64,000 nucleotides of DNA from Paenisporosarcina sp. HGH0030 (GTDB taxonomy: Bacteria; Bacillota; Bacilli; Bacillales_A; Planococcaceae): contig NZ_KE150421.1 in assembly GCF_000411295.1 (NCBI RefSeq), forward strand, positions 1,821,451-1,885,450. The letters run 5' to 3'. Shown piece after piece: positions 2,560 to 17,315 of the stretch. The number at the start of each line of letters is the position of its first letter. Position 1 is the stretch's first letter. A program made the translations under genes and the position numbers. The notes beneath the pieces are model-generated. The model saw nothing but the letters and a program-made list of their open reading frames with translations. It was not told the origin of the DNA and made no database searches.

Positions 2560-2590
2560 AAAAAAATCCTTCAGCTGTGTCTGAAGGATT
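2560..2590 (-). terminator. Terminator of the cobalamin operon
   Basis: AATCCTTCAG and CTGAAGGATT form a 10-bp stem with a 6-nt loop, followed on the minus strand by an uninterrupted T tract. It begins at the cblS stop codon and closes the 13-gene cobalamin operon. Confidence 0.9.
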
Positions 2591-3269
2591 AATGATTTAT
2601 CGTTAATTCTCTCAATTCATTACCAAAATGAATTGATGCTCGCTCGATTGATTCTTTTTTGACACCAACTAAAACGACAGTACAAGGTCCAGCTGACTTT
2701 TCGACATCCACATCCGAATGAACAAATAGTTTATCATTTGCAAACAGAATCCTGACCTCTTCCTGAATCCCTTTTGATCCGACTGGCCAGATAGACGTCA
2801 CAAAACCACCATCTATTGCTAACTTCACTTTTTTCAAGTCAGCTATGACTTTAGAATTCTCAAGTACTTCATTACCCACAAAGGGTTGGCCATAAATAAA
2901 CCAAGTAACATCACTCTTAAAAACTTCTCTGCAATGACCAATCATTGTAACTGACATAGCGGATTGTAAAAGGTCCATATTAGTTTCACTACTGCCTGTT
3001 ACTAAAATACGCTCTAAATCTAAGTCTTTCAGGATTCGATTAACACCTTGAACATAACCTTGCCATGCAGCTTCACCTGAAAAGTTGTGGATAATTACAG
3101 ATTCCACTTGGGCATTTGCAGCCCACTGTTCGAGTAATGCTACACGAGCTGCAAAATAACTGACGACATCATTTGGTGCAAATACAAGATCGGCTTGTTT
3201 TTCACCTATACCTCCAGAGTTATCAGTTGTAACGACAAATCCGTTAGCCAATTTCAGCGCATTTCTCAT
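2589..3269 (-). CDS. cblS: Probable alpha-ribazole kinase CblS
   Basis: This 226-aa protein has an N-terminal TTDNSGGIGEKQAD segment like the nucleotide-binding start of PurM/AIR-synthetase-superfamily enzymes. That matches CblS, which phosphorylates alpha-ribazole to alpha-ribazole-phosphate in Listeria and Geobacillus and so replaces CobT for lower-ligand activation. It is the last gene of the B12 operon and overlaps cblT by 4 nt (ATGA), indicating translational coupling. The pairing with a small ECF-type membrane protein strongly supports this call. Without that context the protein would only be called PurM-like. Confidence 0.72.
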   Translation of the reverse strand: MRNALKLANGFVVTTDNSGGIGEKQADLVFAPNDVVSYFAARVALLEQWAANAQVESVIIHNFSGEAAWQGYVQGVNRILKDLDLERILVTGSSETNMDLLQSAMSVTMIGHCREVFKSDVTWFIYGQPFVGNEVLENSKVIADLKKVKLAIDGGFVTSIWPVGSKGIQEEVRILFANDKLFVHSDVDVEKSAGPCTVVLVGVKKESIERASIHFGNELRELTINH

Positions 3270-3748: not shown

Positions 3749-4339
3749 TTATTCCTCCACTTTTTTCGCTCGTCCACCATTTCTAAAAACTTTTGCAGAA
3801 CGCACGTATTCGTTGTCTGGTACGTTGACCCGCGAGTTGGCTACTCGTGAAGCAGCAAATAAATAGTCTGACAAGCGATTCAAATAACGTTGCACTACAG
3901 TAGGTATGTCTTCTTCTACTTTCATCAAGGTCACCATTTGTCTTTCAGCACGACGTGTTACAGTTCTCGCGATATGCAGAGTTGCGGCAGCTGGTGATCC
4001 TCCTGGTAAAATAAATCGTTCGAGCATTGGCGGTTCTTCCATTAGTTCATCAATTCGTTTCTCTAATACTTCTACTGGCTCTTCTGTCATTTTATATGTC
4101 CGATTTGGCTTGACGTTTGCTAAATCTCCGCCACAATCGAATAATTCATTTTGAATTGCTTCTAAGTCTGTAAGCAAGTCCGTGAAAATGGTTGGATCTA
4201 GTTCTGTCATTGCTTTGCCAATAAACGAATTCACTTCATCAATTGTTCCATAAGTTTCAACTCGTGGATCATCTTTATCTGCGCGTGCCCCAATTAAACT
4301 TGTTTGTCCTTTGTCTCCAGTTCGTGTATATATTCTCAA
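3749..4339 (-). CDS. PduO-type cob(I)alamin adenosyltransferase
   Basis: This 196-aa enzyme transfers the adenosyl group of ATP to cob(I)alamin or cobinamide, forming the Co-C bond of coenzyme B12. The N-terminal YTRTGDKGQTSLIG motif is the PduO-type ATP-binding loop, and the C-terminal half has RTVTRRAERQMV and YLNRLSDYLFAASR, the conserved arginine and aspartate patches. Length is normal for the family. The start is TTG with a GGGGG ribosome-binding site. Role in the operon: adenosylates salvaged corrinoids before nucleotide-loop assembly. Confidence 0.93.
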   Translation of the reverse strand: MRIYTRTGDKGQTSLIGARADKDDPRVETYGTIDEVNSFIGKAMTELDPTIFTDLLTDLEAIQNELFDCGGDLANVKPNRTYKMTEEPVEVLEKRIDELMEEPPMLERFILPGGSPAAATLHIARTVTRRAERQMVTLMKVEEDIPTVVQRYLNRLSDYLFAASRVANSRVNVPDNEYVRSAKVFRNGGRAKKVEE

Positions 4340-4371: not shown

Positions 4372-4770
4372 CTATTTTAATGATTCAGTTAAGCCATACC
4401 AAATACGTGTAACGTTTGTTGCTTCTTTGAAAATCTGTTGGCATAACCTGCCACATCGATCTCGAAGTTCACGTGTTTCGGCTTCGATTGGTACTATTCC
4501 ACGTCCGTTTTCTGTCACAATCACTATGACATCACTTTGTGCGCGATATGTATTTAATGTTTTCATGAAATCTTGAATGACCCGTTCTTCTGGACTGTTT
4601 ATATGATGCTCAACAAAAGCTTCCACCCCAGCAAGAACGATTGTCTGAGCATTCGCTTTTGGCAAGTCCTTATTATCTGCACATTCAATCCATTGCACTT
4701 CTCGTTCAACTACGAGTTGTCTGACATACGATCGCTTGCCGTTATTCGCTCCACCGATATAGACTTGCAT
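4372..4770 (-). CDS. Small CobU-like P-loop protein
   Basis: This 132-aa protein starts MQVYIGGANNGKRSY, like the CobU P-loop GGARSGKS, but has arginine where CobU has the Mg-binding Ser/Thr. It keeps a hydrophobic VIVIVTEN strand and GIVPIE near residues 78-93, like the VVSNEVG-type segment of CobU. The middle region with the guanylylation site is missing. A clear GAGGAGG site 7 nt upstream fixes the ATG, so the gene overlaps the end of cobC by 61 nt. The full CobU is encoded at 6889-7455, so this one is probably not the main kinase. Function unknown. Confidence 0.6.
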   Translation of the reverse strand: MQVYIGGANNGKRSYVRQLVVEREVQWIECADNKDLPKANAQTIVLAGVEAFVEHHINSPEERVIQDFMKTLNTYRAQSDVIVIVTENGRGIVPIEAETRELRDRCGRLCQQIFKEATNVTRIWYGLTESLK

Positions 4771-5318
4771 CTTCTTTCCTCCTCAAAGCTCTTACGACTG
4801 TCCCAGTGTAATGTCCATTTGTCCCCGTGTTTGACATCCCTTGACCAAAAATCACGCACATCTGGTGCAAACTTATGGAGCACAAAACGAATAGGTCCAC
4901 CATGTGTTACTACAACTGGATGATTGCAAGGAATACTTTTTAGACCAATTAGAACGCGTGTAGCCATCTGGTGTAAAAACTCACCGTTTGGAGGGGATAT
5001 TTTATCTGGATTAGACACCCACTTTTGATAGTTGGCATCTTTCTTTAAGTCCTCATAAGTCTTTAGCTCCCAGTCACCAAAGGACATCTCACGAAAAGCT
5101 GGTGAACTTTGGTAGGATGATTTAGGATAAAAAATGGAAGCTGTTTGATGGCACCGTTTTAGGTCACTTCCGTAAATAATCTCCGGGGACAAAATCCCTT
5201 GAATATCTACATATGACAACTGGTTAATTGATTCGTCACTCCAACCGATGTAGCGTCTTTCAACATTCGCTAATGTCGGCAGATGCCTTATTAAAGTAAG
5301 ACGAAAATCAACAGCCAT
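4710..5318 (-). CDS. cobC: Probable alpha-ribazole-5'-phosphate phosphatase (CobC family)
   Basis: This 202-aa histidine-phosphatase-superfamily protein carries the phosphohistidine motif LIRHLPT at residues 9-15 and the second catalytic histidine in VVVTHGGPIRF near residue 135. CobC removes the phosphate from alpha-ribazole-phosphate or adenosylcobalamin-5'-phosphate at the end of nucleotide-loop assembly. The start has a GGAAGTGAT site and overlaps the end of cobS by 28 nt. Histidine phosphatases are hard to assign by sequence alone; the operon makes CobC the best call. Confidence 0.82.
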   Translation of the reverse strand: MAVDFRLTLIRHLPTLANVERRYIGWSDESINQLSYVDIQGILSPEIIYGSDLKRCHQTASIFYPKSSYQSSPAFREMSFGDWELKTYEDLKKDANYQKWVSNPDKISPPNGEFLHQMATRVLIGLKSIPCNHPVVVTHGGPIRFVLHKFAPDVRDFWSRDVKHGDKWTLHWDSRKSFEEERRCKSISVERITASDRMSDNS

Positions 5319-6046
5319 AATATCACTTCCATCCCTTCAACGAAAGCACCTGAGACATCTCCCGTGACCCCTCCGAAATGTTTTTTCGTCCAAAGTTTAT
5401 ATGCATGTGCACAAATTAACAGAGCAACAAGTGTGGTGATGGCAAATAACATTTCCACACCGACAATAACGATAAATCCAAGGCCTATAGCAATTGAAAT
5501 GAATGTTGCTGTGAGTAACATTCTGTGGTCATAGCGTTTTTTAAAGAAAGCTGCCAATCCTTTATCCTTTGCTTCAGGTGTAATGAGAAAGTAGTAAACC
5601 ATTGTTGCTCTCGCTAAAAATGGGGTAACCACTAACCACTCCCACTTCATCCCGTTTTGCGTAATTATCTCTGCAAGCAAAACGATTTTTCCCACAATAA
5701 GAAATAGTATAGCCATTGTGCCAAAAGCACCAATCCGTGGATCGTCTAATATTTCATGGCGTTTATCTTGGTTACGATAAGAAAAAAAGGCATCACTCGT
5801 ATCAGCAAATCCATCCAGATGCAGTCCACCTGAAAGCACAATACCGATTAACACGATGGTAAATGCTAAAAAAAGAGGACTTACATCAAGATACAACCAA
5901 ACAATTGAAGTGATCAGCCCGAATGCCCCCCCTATCCAGGGGAGAGTGGCAAACATCATCGTTACTGATTTCCGATTCATATTCAGTTCTTTATTAATTG
6001 GGATAATGGTAAAAAATTGTAGAGCAAGCAATACCCCGCGTATCAT
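5291..6046 (-). CDS. cobS: Adenosylcobinamide-GDP ribazoletransferase (cobalamin synthase)
   Basis: This integral membrane enzyme joins adenosylcobinamide-GDP to alpha-ribazole(-phosphate). The family motifs [18 protein letters not shown] and DDPRIGAFG are present, followed by several membrane helices. I place the start at the ATG at 6046 (251 aa) instead of an upstream in-frame ATG. The downstream start gives the conserved N-terminus [17 protein letters not shown] and overlaps the cobQ stop by 4 nt (ATGA). Confidence 0.93.
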
Positions 6047-6876
6047 GGTAGCTTCACCATATTCTTTATTTTTTCCCAATCTAAATGGGATGCAACATGA
6101 AGAGCCCATTCATCATATTTATCTTCACCAGACTTGTTTGAAATTGAATCATGTTGAGTAATATAAGAATCTTCCTCTTCAATTTCGTGGTTATCCATAA
6201 ATGGAATAACGCCGAGAACTGGAATTCCTGTGTAGGACTCAATAAATGATACGCCCTCCTGAAACAATTCCTTATCTCCACGAAACTTATTAATAATGAT
6301 CCCCTTTACTCGATCCCGATGATTTGAAGACAATAATTCCAGAGTCCCAACGATTGTTGCAAAAACTCCACCACGTTCAATATCAGCAACAAGCAATACT
6401 GGCACATCCGCTAAATCAGCAATTTTCATATTGACAAGTTCTCGGTCAGTTAAGTTTACTTCTACTGGACTTCCAGCTCCTTCTAACACAACTACATCAT
6501 AGTGCTCACTCACAAACGAAAGCGATTGTTTGATAACTGTCAAACCATGATCATAAAAAGATTCACGATACGCTACCCCGGACATTTCCTCCACTTTTTC
6601 ACCTAACAACCATACTTCAGAAGACATATGTCCAGAGGGCTTTAATAAAATAGGGTTCATTTGTGGAAGAGGTTGAACTTTCGCCGCTTCTGCCTGTGCA
6701 AATTGAGCGGTACTGATTTCTAATCCATTACCTATTTTTGTAGAAAAGGTCGACATATTTTGAGATTTAAATGGTGCTACATGAAAACCCTCATTTGCAA
6801 ATAACCGGCAAAGTGCTGTACAGATCATGCTCTTTCCGACGTTAGAAGCTGTCCCTTGTATCATAATACCGTGCAT
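6043..6876 (-). CDS. cobQ: Short CobQ-like cobyric acid synthase lacking the glutaminase domain
   Basis: This 277-aa protein matches the dethiobiotin-synthetase-like N-terminal half of CobQ/CbiP: P-loop [27 protein letters not shown] and DIERGGVFA. Family members are about 490-510 aa, with a class-I glutamine amidotransferase domain supplying ammonia. Here that domain is absent. The sequence goes from the end of the ATPase domain ([16 protein letters not shown]) through a short polar linker to a tail, [17 protein letters not shown], that resembles the extreme C-terminus of full-length CobQ. This looks like an in-frame internal loss of about 200 residues. The gene has a GGGGGA site and is coupled to cobS, so it appears to be translated. 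Whether it still amidates anything is open. Confidence 0.8.
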
Positions 6877-6888
6877 ATGTATTCCCCC

Positions 6889-7455
6889 TTACTTCCACTT
6901 CTTTGCTAGTCCATATGTAAGTTCATATGCATAATCACTCTCTTTGACGAGCCACTGGTGGAGCATTCCCAGCCATTGCTGATAGATTACTACATCTGGA
7001 ATTTTCGAAATAGGCTCATCTAATACTTCATTAGAAATGACGACTACGGTTGTCCCGTTTTTCAGCAACGAACTAATCGTTTCATGGAAACGTCTCTCTT
7101 TTTCATGCATGCAGTTTTCACGTTTAAAGCATGGGTCATCCATTGCCCATCCTTCGTACAATTCATTAGCTAACCACGTAGTGATGCAGTCAATCAGAAC
7201 CCCATCACCAGGTTGGATGGATGGCAGAACTTCTTCTATTTGACGAGGTTGTTCAATCGTCAGCCAGTTGTTTTTATAGTCTTTTCGATCCTGTTGATGT
7301 CGTTTGATGCGTTGTTCCATTTCACTGTCGTTGGCAACGCCCGTCGCGAGATAGATTAGTCGCGAACAAGATTGATTCATTAGCCATTCTTCAGCAAAAC
7401 CCGTTTTTCCACTTCGTACACCGCCAGAGATAAATGTTAGCGTGCCTCGAACCAT
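6889..7455 (-). CDS. cobU: Adenosylcobinamide kinase / adenosylcobinamide-phosphate guanylyltransferase
   Basis: This 188-aa CobU/CobP enzyme phosphorylates adenosylcobinamide and then adds GMP to give adenosylcobinamide-GDP, the CobS substrate. The P-loop GGVRSGKTGFAEEW is at residues 11-24. LATGVANDSEMEQRIKRHQ contains the conserved histidine region guanylylated in CobU, and IDCITTWLANEL matches the family DCLTLWL motif. Length is standard. It overlaps the end of cobD by 19 nt and has an AAGGAG site. Confidence 0.93.
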   Translation of the reverse strand: MVRGTLTFISGGVRSGKTGFAEEWLMNQSCSRLIYLATGVANDSEMEQRIKRHQQDRKDYKNNWLTIEQPRQIEEVLPSIQPGDGVLIDCITTWLANELYEGWAMDDPCFKRENCMHEKERRFHETISSLLKNGTTVVVISNEVLDEPISKIPDVVIYQQWLGMLHQWLVKESDYAYELTYGLAKKWK

Positions 7456-8507
7456 ACTGTTAACTCCTTTTTAAGGATTTCCATATCTTCTGCGGTCTTC
7501 ATACCAATTCTGTACCATTGACCGTCAAGTCCTTGAAAATTCTCGGTATGTCTTAAAACCAACCCTTGTCTTAAAAAGTATTGGAAAAATTCACTGTCTG
7601 GTTGTTGTAACTTAAACAATAAAAAGTTGGCTTGTGATTGTGTTACTTCGCAACCTTTTGCTTTTAGAAAAGCACTCATGTCGAGCAGCATGTTTTTGCT
7701 ATGAAGAATTGTTTTCTGCCGGAACTCTTCATCTTTTAATACGAGAGAGCCAATTTCAGTTGCTATCCTATTTACATTCCAATGTGGTGCCAGTTGTCGA
7801 ATTTCTTTGACTATGGAAGGGGCTGCTGCCATGTATCCTAGCCTTAGACCAGGCATTGCGTACATTTTTGTCATTGAGCGAACAATAATCAAATGACTAA
7901 AATTCATATCAGAAATTAATGATGATTGTTCTGAAATGAAATCAATGAAGGCTTCGTCCAATACGATTTCACAGTTTACTTTTTTCGCGTATTCTACTAA
8001 ATCCACTAACACTTTGCGTTTTAGCAATGTGCCAGTTGGGTTATTCGGTGTACATAAGTATAGGACATCGGCTTGTTGCATATGCATTTTCATTTCATCA
8101 ATCGGGTATTCACCCGTAATGATATCAGTCATGTGCAAGTTCACAATTTCCACTTCGCGTGCTCTTAAAGTCGTTTCATATTCAGAGAAAGTTGGGTGAA
8201 CGATTATCGCTCGTTTGCCTCTGTACCTTTGTGCAAGCAATGAAAATATTTCTGCGGCTCCATTTGCAACGAAAATGGAGTAAGGCGAGATGTTGTGATA
8301 CTCAGCGATTGCTGTTCGAAAAGGTTCACCAAGTGGATCTGGATACCCCATCATAAACGGTTGGAATTTGTACCAGTCAGTTTGTATTGAGGTAGGGGGA
8401 CCGAATGGATTGACGTTTTCACTAAAGTCTATCATTCGTTCGGGAGGATTAATTCCCAAACTTTTATATAGATGATGTGGATTTGCACCATGGTTAGGTA
8501 ATGCCAC
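7437..8507 (-). CDS. cobD: Threonine-phosphate decarboxylase CobD
   Basis: This 356-aa PLP enzyme of the aspartate-aminotransferase fold makes (R)-1-amino-2-propanol phosphate, the linker between corrin ring and nucleotide loop. Visible features are HGANPHHLYKSLGI at the N-terminus, FSENVNPFGPP, the substrate loop CTPNNPTG, and the PLP-lysine motif SMTKMYAMPGLRLGY. Histidinol-phosphate aminotransferase is the close relative; the operon position decides for CobD. It starts with GTG behind a GGGGGTG site and overlaps cbiB by 14 nt. Confidence 0.9.
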   Translation of the reverse strand: MALPNHGANPHHLYKSLGINPPERMIDFSENVNPFGPPTSIQTDWYKFQPFMMGYPDPLGEPFRTAIAEYHNISPYSIFVANGAAEIFSLLAQRYRGKRAIIVHPTFSEYETTLRAREVEIVNLHMTDIITGEYPIDEMKMHMQQADVLYLCTPNNPTGTLLKRKVLVDLVEYAKKVNCEIVLDEAFIDFISEQSSLISDMNFSHLIIVRSMTKMYAMPGLRLGYMAAAPSIVKEIRQLAPHWNVNRIATEIGSLVLKDEEFRQKTILHSKNMLLDMSAFLKAKGCEVTQSQANFLLFKLQQPDSEFFQYFLRQGLVLRHTENFQGLDGQWYRIGMKTAEDMEILKKELTVWFEAR

Positions 8508-9450
8508 TTAAAACACCCCCGATAACCATCATCATTACCCAAAACAGAAATATAGCGATATGCATTTGACGGATTGTATATAAAATATGAATTGCTCGAA
8601 GCGGGTTTTCTGAAATTCCCATACGTGGACGGTTAGAAGGAATTCCTTTATACATATTAAGACCTCCAAGTTGCACGCCAAGTTGATAGGCAGTCGCAGC
8701 TTCCAAGTACCCACTATTTGGGCTTGGATGCTTTTTGGCATCTTTCCACCAATTAGCTAATCGTGTGCTAAGGGTTTGTTTACTAAAATTTTTTGTCCAT
8801 GTAAGAATGATATAGCCTGTGACTCTGCTCGGGATATAGTTCAACACATCATCCATTTTGGCAGAAGCATAACCAAAGTCTTGAAACTTCTCATTTTCAT
8901 GACCCACCATCGAATCTAAGGTATTCACTGCTTTATATAACCAAAGCCCAGGTGCCCCGAAAAGAAATGCGAAGAAAAGTGGAGCTGTTATCCCGTCACT
9001 TGTATTTTCTGAGACAGTTTCTACCACAGCTCGTGTAATTTCTGATTCGGATAACTTTTCAGTATCGCGACCGACAATCCATGATAGTTTCATTCTAGCT
9101 TCTTTCAAGTCACCATTAACTAGTGGTTGATAAACGGACATCGCTGCGTCTTTCAAACTTTTTTGGGCAAACCCTATTGCACACAAAATACTTTCAACAA
9201 CGATTCCAAAAACAAAGTGAATCTCGTATGCTGTGAACACCAAGGCAAATACGCTAGCGAATGTAACCGCAACAACCGATATCAAAAGGATTATACCTTT
9301 AATTTTACGATGACGGCCTTTATTCAACAAAGTAGTTAATTTTGTTATTAATCTACCAATCCATCGAACCGGGTGTGTCCAATTGGATGGATCGCCTATT
9401 ATTCGATCAAGGAGTAAGCCAAAAGTAAGCGCGATTATATGAGCAGACAT
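8494..9450 (-). CDS. cbiB: Adenosylcobinamide-phosphate synthase CbiB
   Basis: This 318-aa membrane protein attaches aminopropanol phosphate (from CobD) to adenosylcobyric acid. The N-terminal LLDRIIGDPSNWTHPVRWIG and the central ETVSENTSDGITAPLFFA motifs are hallmarks of the family. Several hydrophobic helices follow. It sits between btuD-cbiZ and cobD, and together with CbiZ it completes the strip-and-rebuild route for foreign corrinoids. Confidence 0.94.
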   Translation of the reverse strand: MSAHIIALTFGLLLDRIIGDPSNWTHPVRWIGRLITKLTTLLNKGRHRKIKGIILLISVVAVTFASVFALVFTAYEIHFVFGIVVESILCAIGFAQKSLKDAAMSVYQPLVNGDLKEARMKLSWIVGRDTEKLSESEITRAVVETVSENTSDGITAPLFFAFLFGAPGLWLYKAVNTLDSMVGHENEKFQDFGYASAKMDDVLNYIPSRVTGYIILTWTKNFSKQTLSTRLANWWKDAKKHPSPNSGYLEAATAYQLGVQLGGLNMYKGIPSNRPRMGISENPLRAIHILYTIRQMHIAIFLFWVMMMVIGGVLSGIT

Positions 9451-9452
9451 AC

Positions 9453-10919
9453 TTACATTCCTTTCGCTACTTTATAACGTTTGATAGCTAGTGTAGTACA
9501 CTCAAAAACGCCTCGCCCAATGCATTTCCCTAGCTCTGTAATAGGTCCAGCATACGGTAAAAGTTCCCCTTTTTGAGTAGCCGCTATAAGTAAACTGTCC
9601 GTGGAGGTTCCAGTTGCAAGTGTATTTGTTATAGAGTCTCTTACATCTTCGTTTTGAAGAGCTTTTGTTTTTGCTTCTGTCGCTGTAATCATGGCTTGAA
9701 TGAATGCTTCGTCAGATAAATTCCCATTGACAATTATCCAGGTATTAATCGTGCCTACATAAGGTTCATCTTCACGTTCAAATGCTTTTGACACGTCCAC
9801 TGCATTTCCTACGCCCGCTGTAACGGCAATGATAATGGATCCAAAAGTTCCATCATACTCTTCAATGACCACATGTTTCGTTTGAACAGCCGTCATCATT
9901 CCCACTGTATCTGTTGTCGGAAATCCTTGTGCTTGCAGATAATCAAACATCTCATTTGTGCTATCGTCACATTCATAATCAGCTTTCACATGACGATTAA
10001 CAAACGTACGGTACCAACCAAACCCAGGATTTACAACTGCTGATGATACTGTTTTTAATGGGAAGTTTGCTTGCATGACCACATACTCATTTGACACAGC
10101 AAAATGGTCTTTCTTAATGATGTGCTCTTCCTGCAATTCACTCAAATTTGGCAATAATGTAATTTGTGGTTTCGGTTGTTCTGGATGTGGGTGGCTTCTT
10201 ACCCGAGCTTTGTAGACACTTTCTAGCTGTTTTTGTTTTAGTACCGCATGCGGTTCACCAATTATTTTCACTTCGCCATCTTCCATTAATAACAACCGAT
10301 CGCAATACAAGGAAGCTAAATTTATGTCATGAAATACTGAGATGATTGTTAATCCATTCTTAGTGGCTTGCATTCTAATCGTGTCCAACAATTGTTGTTG
10401 ATGTGCAATGTCTAAATGGTTTGTTGGCTCATCCAGTAATAACACTTTTGCTTGCTGTGCAAGTGCTTGCGCCACAAAAACACGTTGTTGTTCTCCTCCA
10501 GAAAGCTGATCGAGATAGACATGCTCATACATTTTCACGTCGGTTAGCTGCATTGCATCTTGAATTGCTTGCTCGTCTTTCTCAGACCAAGATGAAAAGA
10601 ATCCACTTTGATGAGGGTATCTCCCAAGAGAAATCGTGTCTCGCACTGTATATGAAAAAGCATGTGCGTGTAATTGAGGTAACACAGCCATATGCTTAGC
10701 GAGTTCTTTTGTAGTATATGTTTCGATTGGTTTGCTACCTAATTTGACCGTACCTGCTTTCAAAGGAAGTACACCACTAATGATTTTCAGTAAGGTCGAC
10801 TTTCCACTCCCATTTGGACCTAATATCCCAAGAACTTCCCCTTTACCAACATGAAAAGACACGTCTTTTACAATCGGTGAGTCGTGATAACCACCTGTTA
10901 ATCCTTCGACTTTTAGCAT
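9453..10919 (-). CDS. BtuD-CbiZ fusion: corrinoid ABC ATPase plus cobinamide amidohydrolase
   Basis: This 488-aa two-domain protein has residues 1-260 as an ABC ATPase of the iron/B12 type (Walker A GPNGSGKST, signature LSGGEQQR, Walker B VLLLDEPTNHLD). Residues ~275-488 form a CbiZ domain (TDTVGMMTAVQTKHVV, ITAGVGNAVD, LLIAATQKGELLPYAGP). CbiZ cleaves the aminopropanol-nucleotide loop off pseudo-B12 or other corrinoids to give adenosylcobyric acid, which CbiB, CobU and CobS rebuild with the preferred lower ligand. The fusion puts the amidase on the cytoplasmic face of the importer. The domains are joined by a short proline-rich linker near 258-270. Confidence 0.9.
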   Translation of the reverse strand: MLKVEGLTGGYHDSPIVKDVSFHVGKGEVLGILGPNGSGKSTLLKIISGVLPLKAGTVKLGSKPIETYTTKELAKHMAVLPQLHAHAFSYTVRDTISLGRYPHQSGFFSSWSEKDEQAIQDAMQLTDVKMYEHVYLDQLSGGEQQRVFVAQALAQQAKVLLLDEPTNHLDIAHQQQLLDTIRMQATKNGLTIISVFHDINLASLYCDRLLLMEDGEVKIIGEPHAVLKQKQLESVYKARVRSHPHPEQPKPQITLLPNLSELQEEHIIKKDHFAVSNEYVVMQANFPLKTVSSAVVNPGFGWYRTFVNRHVKADYECDDSTNEMFDYLQAQGFPTTDTVGMMTAVQTKHVVIEEYDGTFGSIIIAVTAGVGNAVDVSKAFEREDEPYVGTINTWIIVNGNLSDEAFIQAMITATEAKTKALQNEDVRDSITNTLATGTSTDSLLIAATQKGELLPYAGPITELGKCIGRGVFECTTLAIKRYKVAKGM

Positions 10920-10921
10920 GA

Positions 10922-11917
10922 TTACGCACTCACCTTTCTTCGTTGTTTCCAGAAAATAAACGCAAACACTGGTGCACCAATAAAGGCTGTAATTACGCCT
11001 ATTGGTAGCTCAGACGGTGAAATTATGGTTCGTGACACTAAGTCACAAATAATGAGTAATGAAGCACCATTTATAAATGATAAGGGTAATACATGACGAT
11101 GATCCGATCCCCACAACATACGTGTCATATGTGGAACGACGAGACCAACAAAGCCAATGGTTCCAGAAACCGATACCGCAGCACCAGTTAAAATCGAACC
11201 TCCTGTTAAAATCATCATTTTACGTCGTTTCACATTTACACCTAAATGCATGGCACGTTCCTCGCCAAAAACTAATGCATTAAGCTCGCGTCGATTTAGC
11301 CATAATAGTAAAAAACCGATCGTCATAAACGGTAATGCCATTGTGACATAGGGCCAACCTCGCATTGACACACTACCAAGCAACCAGCCAATAATTTGAC
11401 GGAGCTCTTCACCTGAAAGTGAAATCATAAGAGAGATGACAGATCCCAAAAATGCACTAAATATTATTCCTGTGAGAATGATCGTTTCCATCTTCATCGC
11501 GCGGTCTATGAGCTTGGCAAAACTCATAACAGTAACCATCGTTAAAAAAGCACCGAGCATACTGAAGACTGGCAATGTGAACAAGCCTAGAAAGGGTACA
11601 GAAATTCCGAAAAAGAGTGTCACCACGGCGCCAACTGAGGCACCGGACGACACTCCTAACGTATATGGATCCGCTAATGGATTTTTCAACAATCCTTGGA
11701 AAGCTGCTCCCGCTATAGCAAGTGATGCACCAACTAAACCAGCTAGCACAACACGAGGTATGCGAATATTCCAAAGTATGTTTGATGCAGCTTCATCCAT
11801 GTTAGGATTCCACAAGACTTGCATAGGAATCGAAACCGATCCAGCCGTTACCCCAACTAGCACAGCAGCAATCAGTACGAATACAGAAGCTACATAGGCA
11901 AACCAGGTTTTATTCAC
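10922..11917 (-). CDS. btuC: Cobalamin ABC transporter permease BtuC
   Basis: This 331-aa FecCD/BtuC-type permease has about ten hydrophobic helices. Family motifs include IRIPRVVLAGLVGASLAIAG near residues 51-70, LLKNPLADPYTLGVSSGASVG, and the ATPase-contacting region GTIGFVGLVVPHMTR. The start is GTG with a TGAGGT site and overlaps btuF by 8 nt. It works with BtuF and the BtuD part of the fusion two nt downstream. Confidence 0.92.
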   Translation of the reverse strand: MNKTWFAYVASVFVLIAAVLVGVTAGSVSIPMQVLWNPNMDEAASNILWNIRIPRVVLAGLVGASLAIAGAAFQGLLKNPLADPYTLGVSSGASVGAVVTLFFGISVPFLGLFTLPVFSMLGAFLTMVTVMSFAKLIDRAMKMETIILTGIIFSAFLGSVISLMISLSGEELRQIIGWLLGSVSMRGWPYVTMALPFMTIGFLLLWLNRRELNALVFGEERAMHLGVNVKRRKMMILTGGSILTGAAVSVSGTIGFVGLVVPHMTRMLWGSDHRHVLPLSFINGASLLIICDLVSRTIISPSELPIGVITAFIGAPVFAFIFWKQRRKVSA

Positions 11918-12878
11918 TGAAGACCTCAGGATGAATTGCTTTTGCCAATTCTAATAAGCCTTCTGTTAAACGCGGACCTTGACGACTTGTCGTATCAGCA
12001 TCCACATCTATTACTGCCTTGTTTTTCACAGCTGTAACTGTACCAAAACCTTCACGAGTCAAAACTTGCTCCGCTGCATCTGGTACATAATTTCCGTAAG
12101 TTGTTAATATTACATCCGGATTACGCTTTACAATTTCTTCAGGGTCCATCATGATCCAACCTTCTAGATCTGATGCAATATTTTCCGCGTTCAATATTTC
12201 GATCATTTCGTTCATAAACGTGTTATTACCTGCTGTATAAATTTCTGGAGATGGAGATATTTCTGCAAATACTTTTTTCTTCGTTTCAATGGTTGAAGCC
12301 TTTTCTTGAATCGTTGCTACTTCATCCTTCATTGTTTGTACCATTTCTTCAGCTTCTTTAATCTTACCTGTCGCTTGGCCAATAGTAGTCATCGTGTCAT
12401 ACACTTCATCAAAACTTACTGCAGATTTCACAACGTACACGTTTAACCCTGCATCACGCAATTGTTTAATTCCAGCTTCACCTACACCAAGACCTGATTC
12501 ATGTGCAAGTACTAAATCTGGATTTAAAGAAATAATTTTTTCTACATTAAATTCTTGTCCACCAATTTTTTCTTTAGAAGCAACTTCTTCTGGGTAGTTA
12601 TCGTAATCCGAAACTCCCACTACTTCTTCTTCTAAGCCAAGAGCATACAAAATTTCTGTATTGCTTGGAATCATTGAAACGATTGCTTTTGGTGCTTCTT
12701 CCAATGTGATTTCATTATCAGTGACATCCTTAATTGTTAGAGGAAATTGGGAAGCCTCTTGTCCAATTTCTGTATCTTGTGTTTTGCTGTCTGCAGGTTT
12801 TGCTTCTTCCTGCCCACATGCTGTTAATAATATCGCTGCAAGCGCAGTTGCGAGCCATAATTGCCAAATCTTTTTCAT
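11910..12878 (-). CDS. btuF: Cobalamin-binding lipoprotein BtuF
   Basis: This 322-aa lipoprotein has a signal peptide ending in the lipobox LLTACG, so it is lipidated at Cys21. The mature part is a class-III periplasmic-type binding fold with IVSMIPSNTEILYALGLEEEVVGVSDY and GQEFNVEKIISLNPDLVLAH, typical of B12/siderophore-binding proteins. It is the first gene of the operon, directly behind the cobalamin riboswitch, with an AAGGAGG site. Riboswitch control and downstream cob genes support corrinoids as ligand. Confidence 0.92.
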   Translation of the reverse strand: MKKIWQLWLATALAAILLTACGQEEAKPADSKTQDTEIGQEASQFPLTIKDVTDNEITLEEAPKAIVSMIPSNTEILYALGLEEEVVGVSDYDNYPEEVASKEKIGGQEFNVEKIISLNPDLVLAHESGLGVGEAGIKQLRDAGLNVYVVKSAVSFDEVYDTMTTIGQATGKIKEAEEMVQTMKDEVATIQEKASTIETKKKVFAEISPSPEIYTAGNNTFMNEMIEILNAENIASDLEGWIMMDPEEIVKRNPDVILTTYGNYVPDAAEQVLTREGFGTVTAVKNKAVIDVDADTTSRQGPRLTEGLLELAKAIHPEVFSE

Positions 12879-12964: not shown

Positions 12965-13205
12965 TTTGCTAAAATGAGCACGAGCTGATTCACACCATTC
13001 CTATCCTCGTAGGGTTGCGGGTGTTGCGCACGTAGGCAGGTCTCATGGCTTGTGATCAGTGGTTGCGCGTCTTCCCAAAGCTAAGTTTGCTTCAGTGACT
13101 TGATGCGCTTCCTCTCACATACAGTGGCGGGACCGCGTCGGATTTGAACCGACTTCCCTTTTAACTCTGCGATTGAAGCAGAGCACCTTCGTGTTAGGGC
13201 TATGT
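12965..13205 (-). ncRNA. Cobalamin (adenosylcobalamin) riboswitch
   Basis: The minus strand carries the B12 box in near-consensus form: GGGAAG, GGT, AAATCC and then GCGGTCCCGCCACTGT (complement of about 13121-13136). Further 3' comes the second conserved block CCATGAGACCTGCC. The order and spacing fit the cobalamin riboswitch class; the outer limits are approximate. It lies between a sigma-A promoter and a terminator and should shut off the 13-gene B12 operon when coenzyme B12 is plentiful. Part of it superficially looks like a tRNA T-arm, but no tRNA cloverleaf forms. Confidence 0.92.
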
Positions 13206-17145: not shown

Positions 17146-17315
17146 TGTCTAGCTCCAAGCGCCAGGTCGCACCTCCGCATAGGCCCACAGGATGTGGGTC
17201 ATGAAGGCGTTCCGACACGAGGCTAGGAACTTAGCCTCCCGGTGTGCCTGCAGTTACTTGGCACACAGTAAACTTTGCTTCCAACTTCGGAGTCGAGCTA
17301 GAGTGGCGCTTTACG
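17146..17315. repeat. Dispersed structured repeat, ~170-bp copy
   Basis: The left arm TCTAGCTC-C-AAGCGCCA (17148-17164) and the right arm GAGCTAGA-G-TGGCGCTT (17295-17311) contain two perfect 8-bp complements in crossing order. Inside are a CCCAC/GTGGG hairpin (about 17185) and the constant-loop hairpin GTGTGCC/GGCACAC at 17242-17266. The right end runs close to the speB stop codon. Confidence 0.75.

Follow-up and report, generated by a model that had tools for sequence, protein, structure and literature searches.

A cobyric acid synthase that lacks the glutaminase domain but retains the C-terminal tail, encoded in a corrinoid salvage operon of Paenisporosarcina

The DNA analysed here (the window, 64,000 nucleotides of contig NZ_KE150421.1 of Paenisporosarcina sp. 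HGH0030) contains an operon for corrinoid salvage in which a short cobQ gene lies between cobU and cobS. The gene and its parts are the following.

6043-6876, minus strand: short cobQ open reading frame (ORF), 277 amino acids
6166..6876, minus strand: ATP-dependent amide synthetase core, residues 1-237, with P-loop (profile matches, AlphaFold model)
6127..6165, minus strand: short linker, residues 238-250, where full-length CobQ has the glutaminase domain (alignment)
6046..6126, minus strand: retained C-terminal tail, residues 251-277, with helices 251-262 and 267-273, predicted to complete the synthetase fold
6884..6890, minus strand: ribosome-binding motif AAGGGGG, 7 nt 5' of the cobQ ATG (direct reading)
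6043..6046, minus strand: ATGA overlap of the cobQ stop and the cobS start (direct reading)

The 277-residue protein is the ATP-dependent half of CobQ/CbiP without the glutaminase domain and with the C-terminal tail kept. It passes the NCBIfam cut-offs for cobyric acid synthase (TIGR00313, 311.1 versus 309.9 bits; NF001989, 341.9 versus 273 bits), and profile coverage stops at position 238-240 of 477-480, the matched first half of both profiles being the CobQ-type ATP-dependent synthetase domain. No GATase_3 glutaminase domain with its catalytic Cys and His was found in the protein by the Pfam scan, and the alignment to full-length CobQ has a gap in its place. The protein thus resembles CobQ/CbiP in its synthetase half, sequence, operon context and C-terminal tail, and differs from it in lacking the glutaminase domain and hence the Cys-His dyad. 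The first-pass annotation had described a CobQ of this kind, with a good ribosome-binding site and an ATGA overlap with cobS; profile coverage, Pfam and tail homology agree with the description, and both translational features are present. Because the profile cut-off accepts the glutaminase-less protein as ordinary CobQ, glutamine use is assumed although there is no glutaminase in the protein.

Homology of the tail to full-length CobQ was found in two ways. The full-length CobQ frame of genome G072 matches residues 248-274 of the window protein (44% identity, E 4.3e-4), and the window tail scores 34.3 bits against a profile of full-length C-termini. In a tail test with a profile of 103 rows, which include loci with a Cys-to-Gly glutaminase, 51 of the 54 other short proteins exceed the best of 1,080 shuffles (7.9 bits); the three that do not are L093, whose tail is cut, L120, where the assembly has a gap, and L119 in its second tandem copy. 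The similarity to the C-terminus of full-length CobQ therefore survives proper alignment, and the proposed truncation was not refuted by it. The C-terminal sequence quoted in the first-pass annotation does belong to this homologous tail, but it is not the end of the protein, since seven more residues (KNMVKLP) follow. Similarly, a linker does replace the glutaminase domain, but not one of the ~25 residues estimated before: very low model confidence spans only 11 residues, 238-248, where the AlphaFold predicted local distance difference test score (pLDDT) is <50.

In the same model the tail is predicted with confidence, the pLDDT being 91 for residues 251-260, 96 for residues 261-270 and 83 for residues 271-277. 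The model aligns with dethiobiotin synthetase (1dae) over 211 of 219 residues with 18% identity, so that a dethiobiotin-synthetase-like fold is matched over most of the chain, and, judged by the end points of this alignment, the tail is predicted to be part of the synthetase fold. It seems to complete this fold, and the glutaminase of full-length CobQ appears to be an insert before the last helices. An excision sparing the tail would then leave a whole synthetase, which offers a structural reason for how the glutaminase can be cut out. The score against the dethiobiotin synthetase (BioD) profile TIGR00347, 40.4 bits, is below the cut-off of 83.3 bits. The synthetase domain of CTP synthase, an enzyme that keeps its glutaminase, has 10-15% identity to short CobQ in the closest rows. 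A PDB sequence search with the short protein gave no match.

The catalytic core is largely conserved: of 59 columns with ≥95% conservation among 98 full-length rows, 42 remain conserved at ≥90% in each of the three short groups (window's clade, Synergistota, Clostridia). One column, presumably that of CbiP Asp146, holds Glu both in the rows of the window's clade and in those from Synergistota; this is not tied to domain loss because Glu also occurs there in 25 of the 98 full-length rows.

The short form is shared by relatives. A search of 151 genomes gave some match in 103 and a true CobQ in 100, the other three being weak. Within the window's family, 24 genomes from four genera carry short CobQ; these are all the CobQ-bearing genomes found in those genera, two of which are Paenisporosarcina, to which the window belongs, and Bhargavaea with Edaphobacillus. 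One genome each of two other Bacilli families (G101 and G122) has it as well, and four of the resulting 26 (G028, G045, G071 and G087) were classed by match and open-frame length alone. Relatives carry the short form at 94%, 85%, 83% and 79% identity. Nineteen short-form neighbourhoods were fetched from the window's family, and every one has the gene between cobU and cobS; the same slot holds a full-length CobQ of 485-501 residues in six related genomes. A check of the genus itself revealed no intact gene that would speak against the short form; in three of its genomes, G001, G002 (81% complete) and G005, CobQ was not seen at all. For short genes the ratio of nonsynonymous to synonymous substitution rates (dN/dS) could be computed in eight pairs, a further pair being saturated, and was 0.089-0.199, in the range of the neighbour genes; short cobQ is under purifying selection. 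Two further loci may be noted. In L082 (Bhargavaea) the cobQ-cobS and cbiB-cobD blocks are repeated in series, possibly by an assembly fault, and in L054 (9637-10470, minus strand) the short CobQ of G122 adjoins importer genes in a genome with cbiA over the cut-off and in which cbiC was not found.

The short architecture arose repeatedly, in Bacilli, Synergistota and Clostridia. It is present at 13 Synergistales loci (from a scan of named genomes and ORF analysis), with a cut tail at a fourteenth, L093, and in Peptostreptococcus anaerobius. In two Bacillota bins a corrinoid operon contains a tandem pair of CobQ genes without glutaminase (L119, 3227-4974; L129, 9911-11673), the second copies being very divergent. 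The short form accounts for 5 of the 43 CobQ genomes sampled in Clostridia, seed included, and, by open-frame length, for 21 of 72 in Synergistota. In a tree of 153 synthetase domains, made without duplicates and without contig-edge or gap-containing loci, absence of the glutaminase required 9 changes, at least 6 of them forced by well-supported branches, single placements being unsure owing to long branches and a quick search. A single origin of 24 short rows among 43 was rejected (approximately unbiased test, p-AU 7.95e-6). Four full-length CobQs have the nucleophile Cys changed to Gly (L058, 8854-10335; L174, 213-1694; L068, 9655-11184; L223, 287-1810), and L174 shares its genome (G056) with an intact copy, L199. 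Two minor observations may be added. A Dethiobacter bin has two tandem full-length CobQ genes (L117, 8380-11479), and the linker of the Synergistota short form seems to be derived from the stretch just before the tail, as a KNYGE-like motif occurs in L244 (full-length) and in L231 and L235 (short); the motif was read by eye, in an analysis that recovered only 3 of the 9 loci named, and MAFFT put it elsewhere.

In the window the gene order is btuF-like, btuC-like, BtuD-like-CbiZ, cbiB, cobD-like, cobU, cobQ, cobS, cobC-like phosphatase, CobU-like, PduO, ECF (energy-coupling factor) S component and a 226-residue protein. The annotated neighbours are these.

13018..13205, minus strand: cobalamin riboswitch 5' of the btuF-like gene (Rfam RF00174, 108.1 bits versus gathering threshold 31.5)
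11910..12878, minus strand: btuF-like gene, periplasmic-binding-protein family (Pfam Peripla_BP_2; BtuF profile below cut-off)
10922..11917, minus strand: btuC-like FecCD-family permease (Pfam FecCD; BtuC profiles below cut-off)
9453..10919, minus strand: BtuD-like ATP-binding-cassette ATPase fused to CbiZ, adenosylcobinamide amidohydrolase (domain scan)
8494..9450, minus strand: cbiB, adenosylcobinamide-phosphate synthase (TIGR00380, 270.5 bits versus cut-off 165.9)
7437..8507, minus strand: cobD-like threonine-phosphate decarboxylase (TIGR01140, 290.2 bits, slightly below the cut-off of 290.55)
6889..7455, minus strand: cobU, adenosylcobinamide kinase/guanylyltransferase family (over the Pfam cut-off, below the NCBIfam cut-off)
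5291..6046, minus strand: cobS, adenosylcobinamide-GDP ribazoletransferase (profile scans, where it is listed with one extra leading codon)
4372-4770, minus strand: second, divergent CobU-like gene, 132 amino acids, kept in related operons (over the Pfam, below the NCBIfam cut-off)
3749..4339, minus strand: pduO-type cobalamin adenosyltransferase (profile scans)
2589-3269, minus strand: 226-residue protein adjoining the ECF S component (no Pfam or NCBIfam match)

The last protein and the ECF S component presumably resemble the alpha-ribazole kinase CblS and the transporter CblT. Short cobQ thus sits in a corrinoid salvage operon controlled by a B12 riboswitch, and the organism probably uses B12 because its genome has three matches to the B12-binding domain.

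Neither cbiC nor cbiA, the two de novo genes tested, was found in the window's clade (no CbiA over the cut-off), and by this gene content the clade is salvage-only. Among Bacilli, cbiC occurred in 0 of the 29 genomes whose glutaminase is missing or Cys-to-Gly and in 53 of the 70 where it is intact; these are 99 of the 100 CobQ genomes, G057 being left out as its gene runs off the contig, and G056, which has cbiC, was counted as intact, without its Cys-to-Gly second copy. Once phylogeny is considered, no more than 4 independent pairs remain within the Bacilli (sign test, p 0.125), and the association between domain loss and cbiC is not established. That domain loss simply follows the loss of ring synthesis fits the Bacilli but is contradicted by the presence of cbiC in short-form Synergistota and Clostridia. 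In a further set cbiC was found in 17 of 23 genomes examined, and in 13 of the 17 short-form genomes outside the window's family, Peptostreptococcus included (these 17 remain of the 23 once four genomes whose glutaminase is full or partial and two from the window's family are left out); no CobQ over the TIGR00313 cut-off was found in these 17, some of which may be incomplete bins. Among the further short-form Clostridia, G295 and G314 have cbiC, and G193 and G237 do not. In Peptostreptococcus anaerobius short CobQ clusters with cbiA (with its GATase_3 domain), cbiC, cbiD, cbiG and three methylases, a gene content from which it appears that the CobQ step must run there without a glutaminase of its own. 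The earlier suggestion of a role in salvage therefore agrees with the gene context in the window's clade, but it does not hold generally, since in other phyla the ring-building cbiC is present in most of the short-form genomes examined. According to PMC3541065, DUF71-B12 proteins strictly anti-correlate with CbiZ in bacteria; a DUF71-B12 alternative was set aside as the operon has CbiZ, the anti-correlated partner, no search aimed at DUF71 having been made.

The genome was also searched for a lone glutaminase gene, another possibility raised by the first-pass annotation being a separate partner of the GatD kind. A GATase_3 search of the window genome gave four matches, named by profile scans as PurQ, PdxT, HisH and a Peptidase_S51 protein, and no GatD- or CobQ-type glutaminase. 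The scan of 13 operon genes gave no GATase domain, the short-CobQ genome G059 had no GATase_3 match whatsoever, and at the loci of 55 short ORFs no glutaminase ORF was picked up by a profile that sees only CobQ-like glutaminases. These results speak against a GatD-like partner. Full-length CobQ and CbiA accept ammonia in vitro. With no glutaminase in the operon, no GatD in the genome and no CobQ-type glutaminase near the 55 short ORFs, we infer that free ammonia is the most economical amide donor of the short enzyme, and among the four meanings considered earlier, ammonia-dependent amidation appears to be the best supported.

We consider it probable that the short gene encodes a working CobQ reduced to an amide synthetase, which would use free ammonia without a dedicated glutaminase and, in the window's organism, would finish or repair amides during salvage. 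In a dethiobiotin-synthetase-like ATPase fold the glutaminase seems to sit as an insert ahead of the last helices; it would have been excised with those helices spared, leaving a complete ATPase. An adenosylated corrinoid would have its propionate side chains activated by the short enzyme with ATP and then amidated with free cytoplasmic ammonia. The window's organism carries genes for a B12-type importer but neither cbiC nor cbiA; there the amides of under-amidated imported corrinoids could be finished or repaired before the cofactor is rebuilt by CbiB, CobU and CobS; in the cbiC-bearing Synergistota and Clostridia short CobQ would perform the normal de novo CobQ step. Excision as the route, ammonia use, activity and substrate are all deductions, and under-amidated corrinoids as the salvage substrate are a guess. 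The wider view, in which several tail-sparing excisions produced a glutaminase-free, ammonia-dependent CobQ class in makers and salvagers alike, the salvager form serving corrinoid amide repair of scavenged B12-type compounds, is tentative and on balance doubtful.

Several observations weigh against a working, ammonia-dependent CobQ. Asn44 is found in 98 of 98 full-length rows and in 12 of 13 short rows from Synergistota, but in none of the 23 from the window's clade and in a single one of the 5 from Clostridia; in 3 of these 5 clostridial short forms Lys79 and Glu53 are changed as well. The loss of Asn44 may reflect either a lost domain contact or a changed function. The lack of cbiC in the window's clade, in 4 of the 17 outside short-form genomes and in 2 of the 5 short-form Clostridia means that these organisms need not make the classic CobQ substrate. 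For the Synergistota, many of which are metagenome bins, a missing second gene is weak evidence. Finally, the CobQ-glutaminase profile missed the GATase_3 domain of CbiA in L115 (12 bits), and help in trans could come from a glutaminase of a different family.

If a glutaminase were borrowed in this way, from a general amidotransferase or an unrecognised family, glutamine would remain the amide donor. Of the solved structures the one nearest to the glutaminase half of CobQ is GatD, a separate subunit working with MurT, the window genome has PurQ, PdxT and HisH, and in Peptostreptococcus anaerobius CbiA with its GATase_3 domain is encoded next to short CobQ; but the search described above found no GatD or CobQ-type glutaminase in the window genome and none in the operon or, within the sensitivity of the profile, near the 55 short ORFs, G059 has no GATase_3 match and the window's clade no CbiA over the cut-off, so that we regard borrowing as unlikely. 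A new salvage role, such as activation of the f-side-chain carboxylate for CbiB or another ligase step, with ammonia amidation lost, seems slightly less likely still. It would suit the change of Asn44 in the window's clade and the absence of cbiC from the 29 Bacilli genomes with an absent or Cys-to-Gly glutaminase (G056 counted as intact), whereas the catalytic-core columns are for the most part conserved, this architecture is also found alongside cbiC and a ring-building cluster, where the CobQ step is still needed, and related salvage-only genomes retain a full glutaminase in the same operon.

That the gene is a relic, functionless since de novo synthesis was lost and now decaying, had also been proposed. 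The apparent lack of cbiC and cbiA in the clade and of CobQ in G001, G002 and G005 of the same genus would be expected of a relic, but the dN/dS values are in the range of the neighbours and the gene is kept, with core motifs intact, in 24 genomes of four genera, and we find this explanation improbable. An assembly collapse in this one strain is ruled out by the separate related genomes that share the short form, and a split gene by the lack of a CobQ-glutaminase ORF downstream; either has a negligible probability. The preferred explanation remains an amide synthetase using free ammonia.

Among known systems, NadE, a member of a different enzyme family from CobQ, offers a measured precedent. 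Its single-domain (type N) form is described in PMC3376133 as an ammonia-dependent, ATP-using amide synthetase with a two-domain, glutamine-using sister form. Short CobQ can be likened to it in ammonia use, which for short CobQ is suggested by the domain loss and by the failure to find a partner; in contrast to single-domain NadE, taken by the authors of that study as most likely ancestral (PMC3376133), short CobQ seems to be derived by repeated loss. This looks like a reversal, repeated independently, of the usual story of synthetases gaining glutaminases. In MurT-GatD the glutaminase is a separate subunit, whereas none was found for short CobQ in the window genome; by structure comparison, and also according to PMC5871853, no solved protein is closer to the CobQ glutaminase half than GatD. 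A further short protein labelled CobQ, AhCobQ of Aeromonas, is reported in PMC11856932 to be a protein lysine deacetylase homologous to Soj, MinD and ParA-type proteins and to cobyric acid synthase; its likeness to short CobQ lies in its small size and its name. No glutaminase-less CobQ was described in the titles or abstracts found in the open-licence literature. The short form raises the questions of whether cobyric acid synthase lives on free cellular ammonia and what CobQ does in B12 scavengers. As a separate observation, a match to the Bacillaceae-1 RNA family is present at 17184-17250 on the minus strand (43.4 bits).
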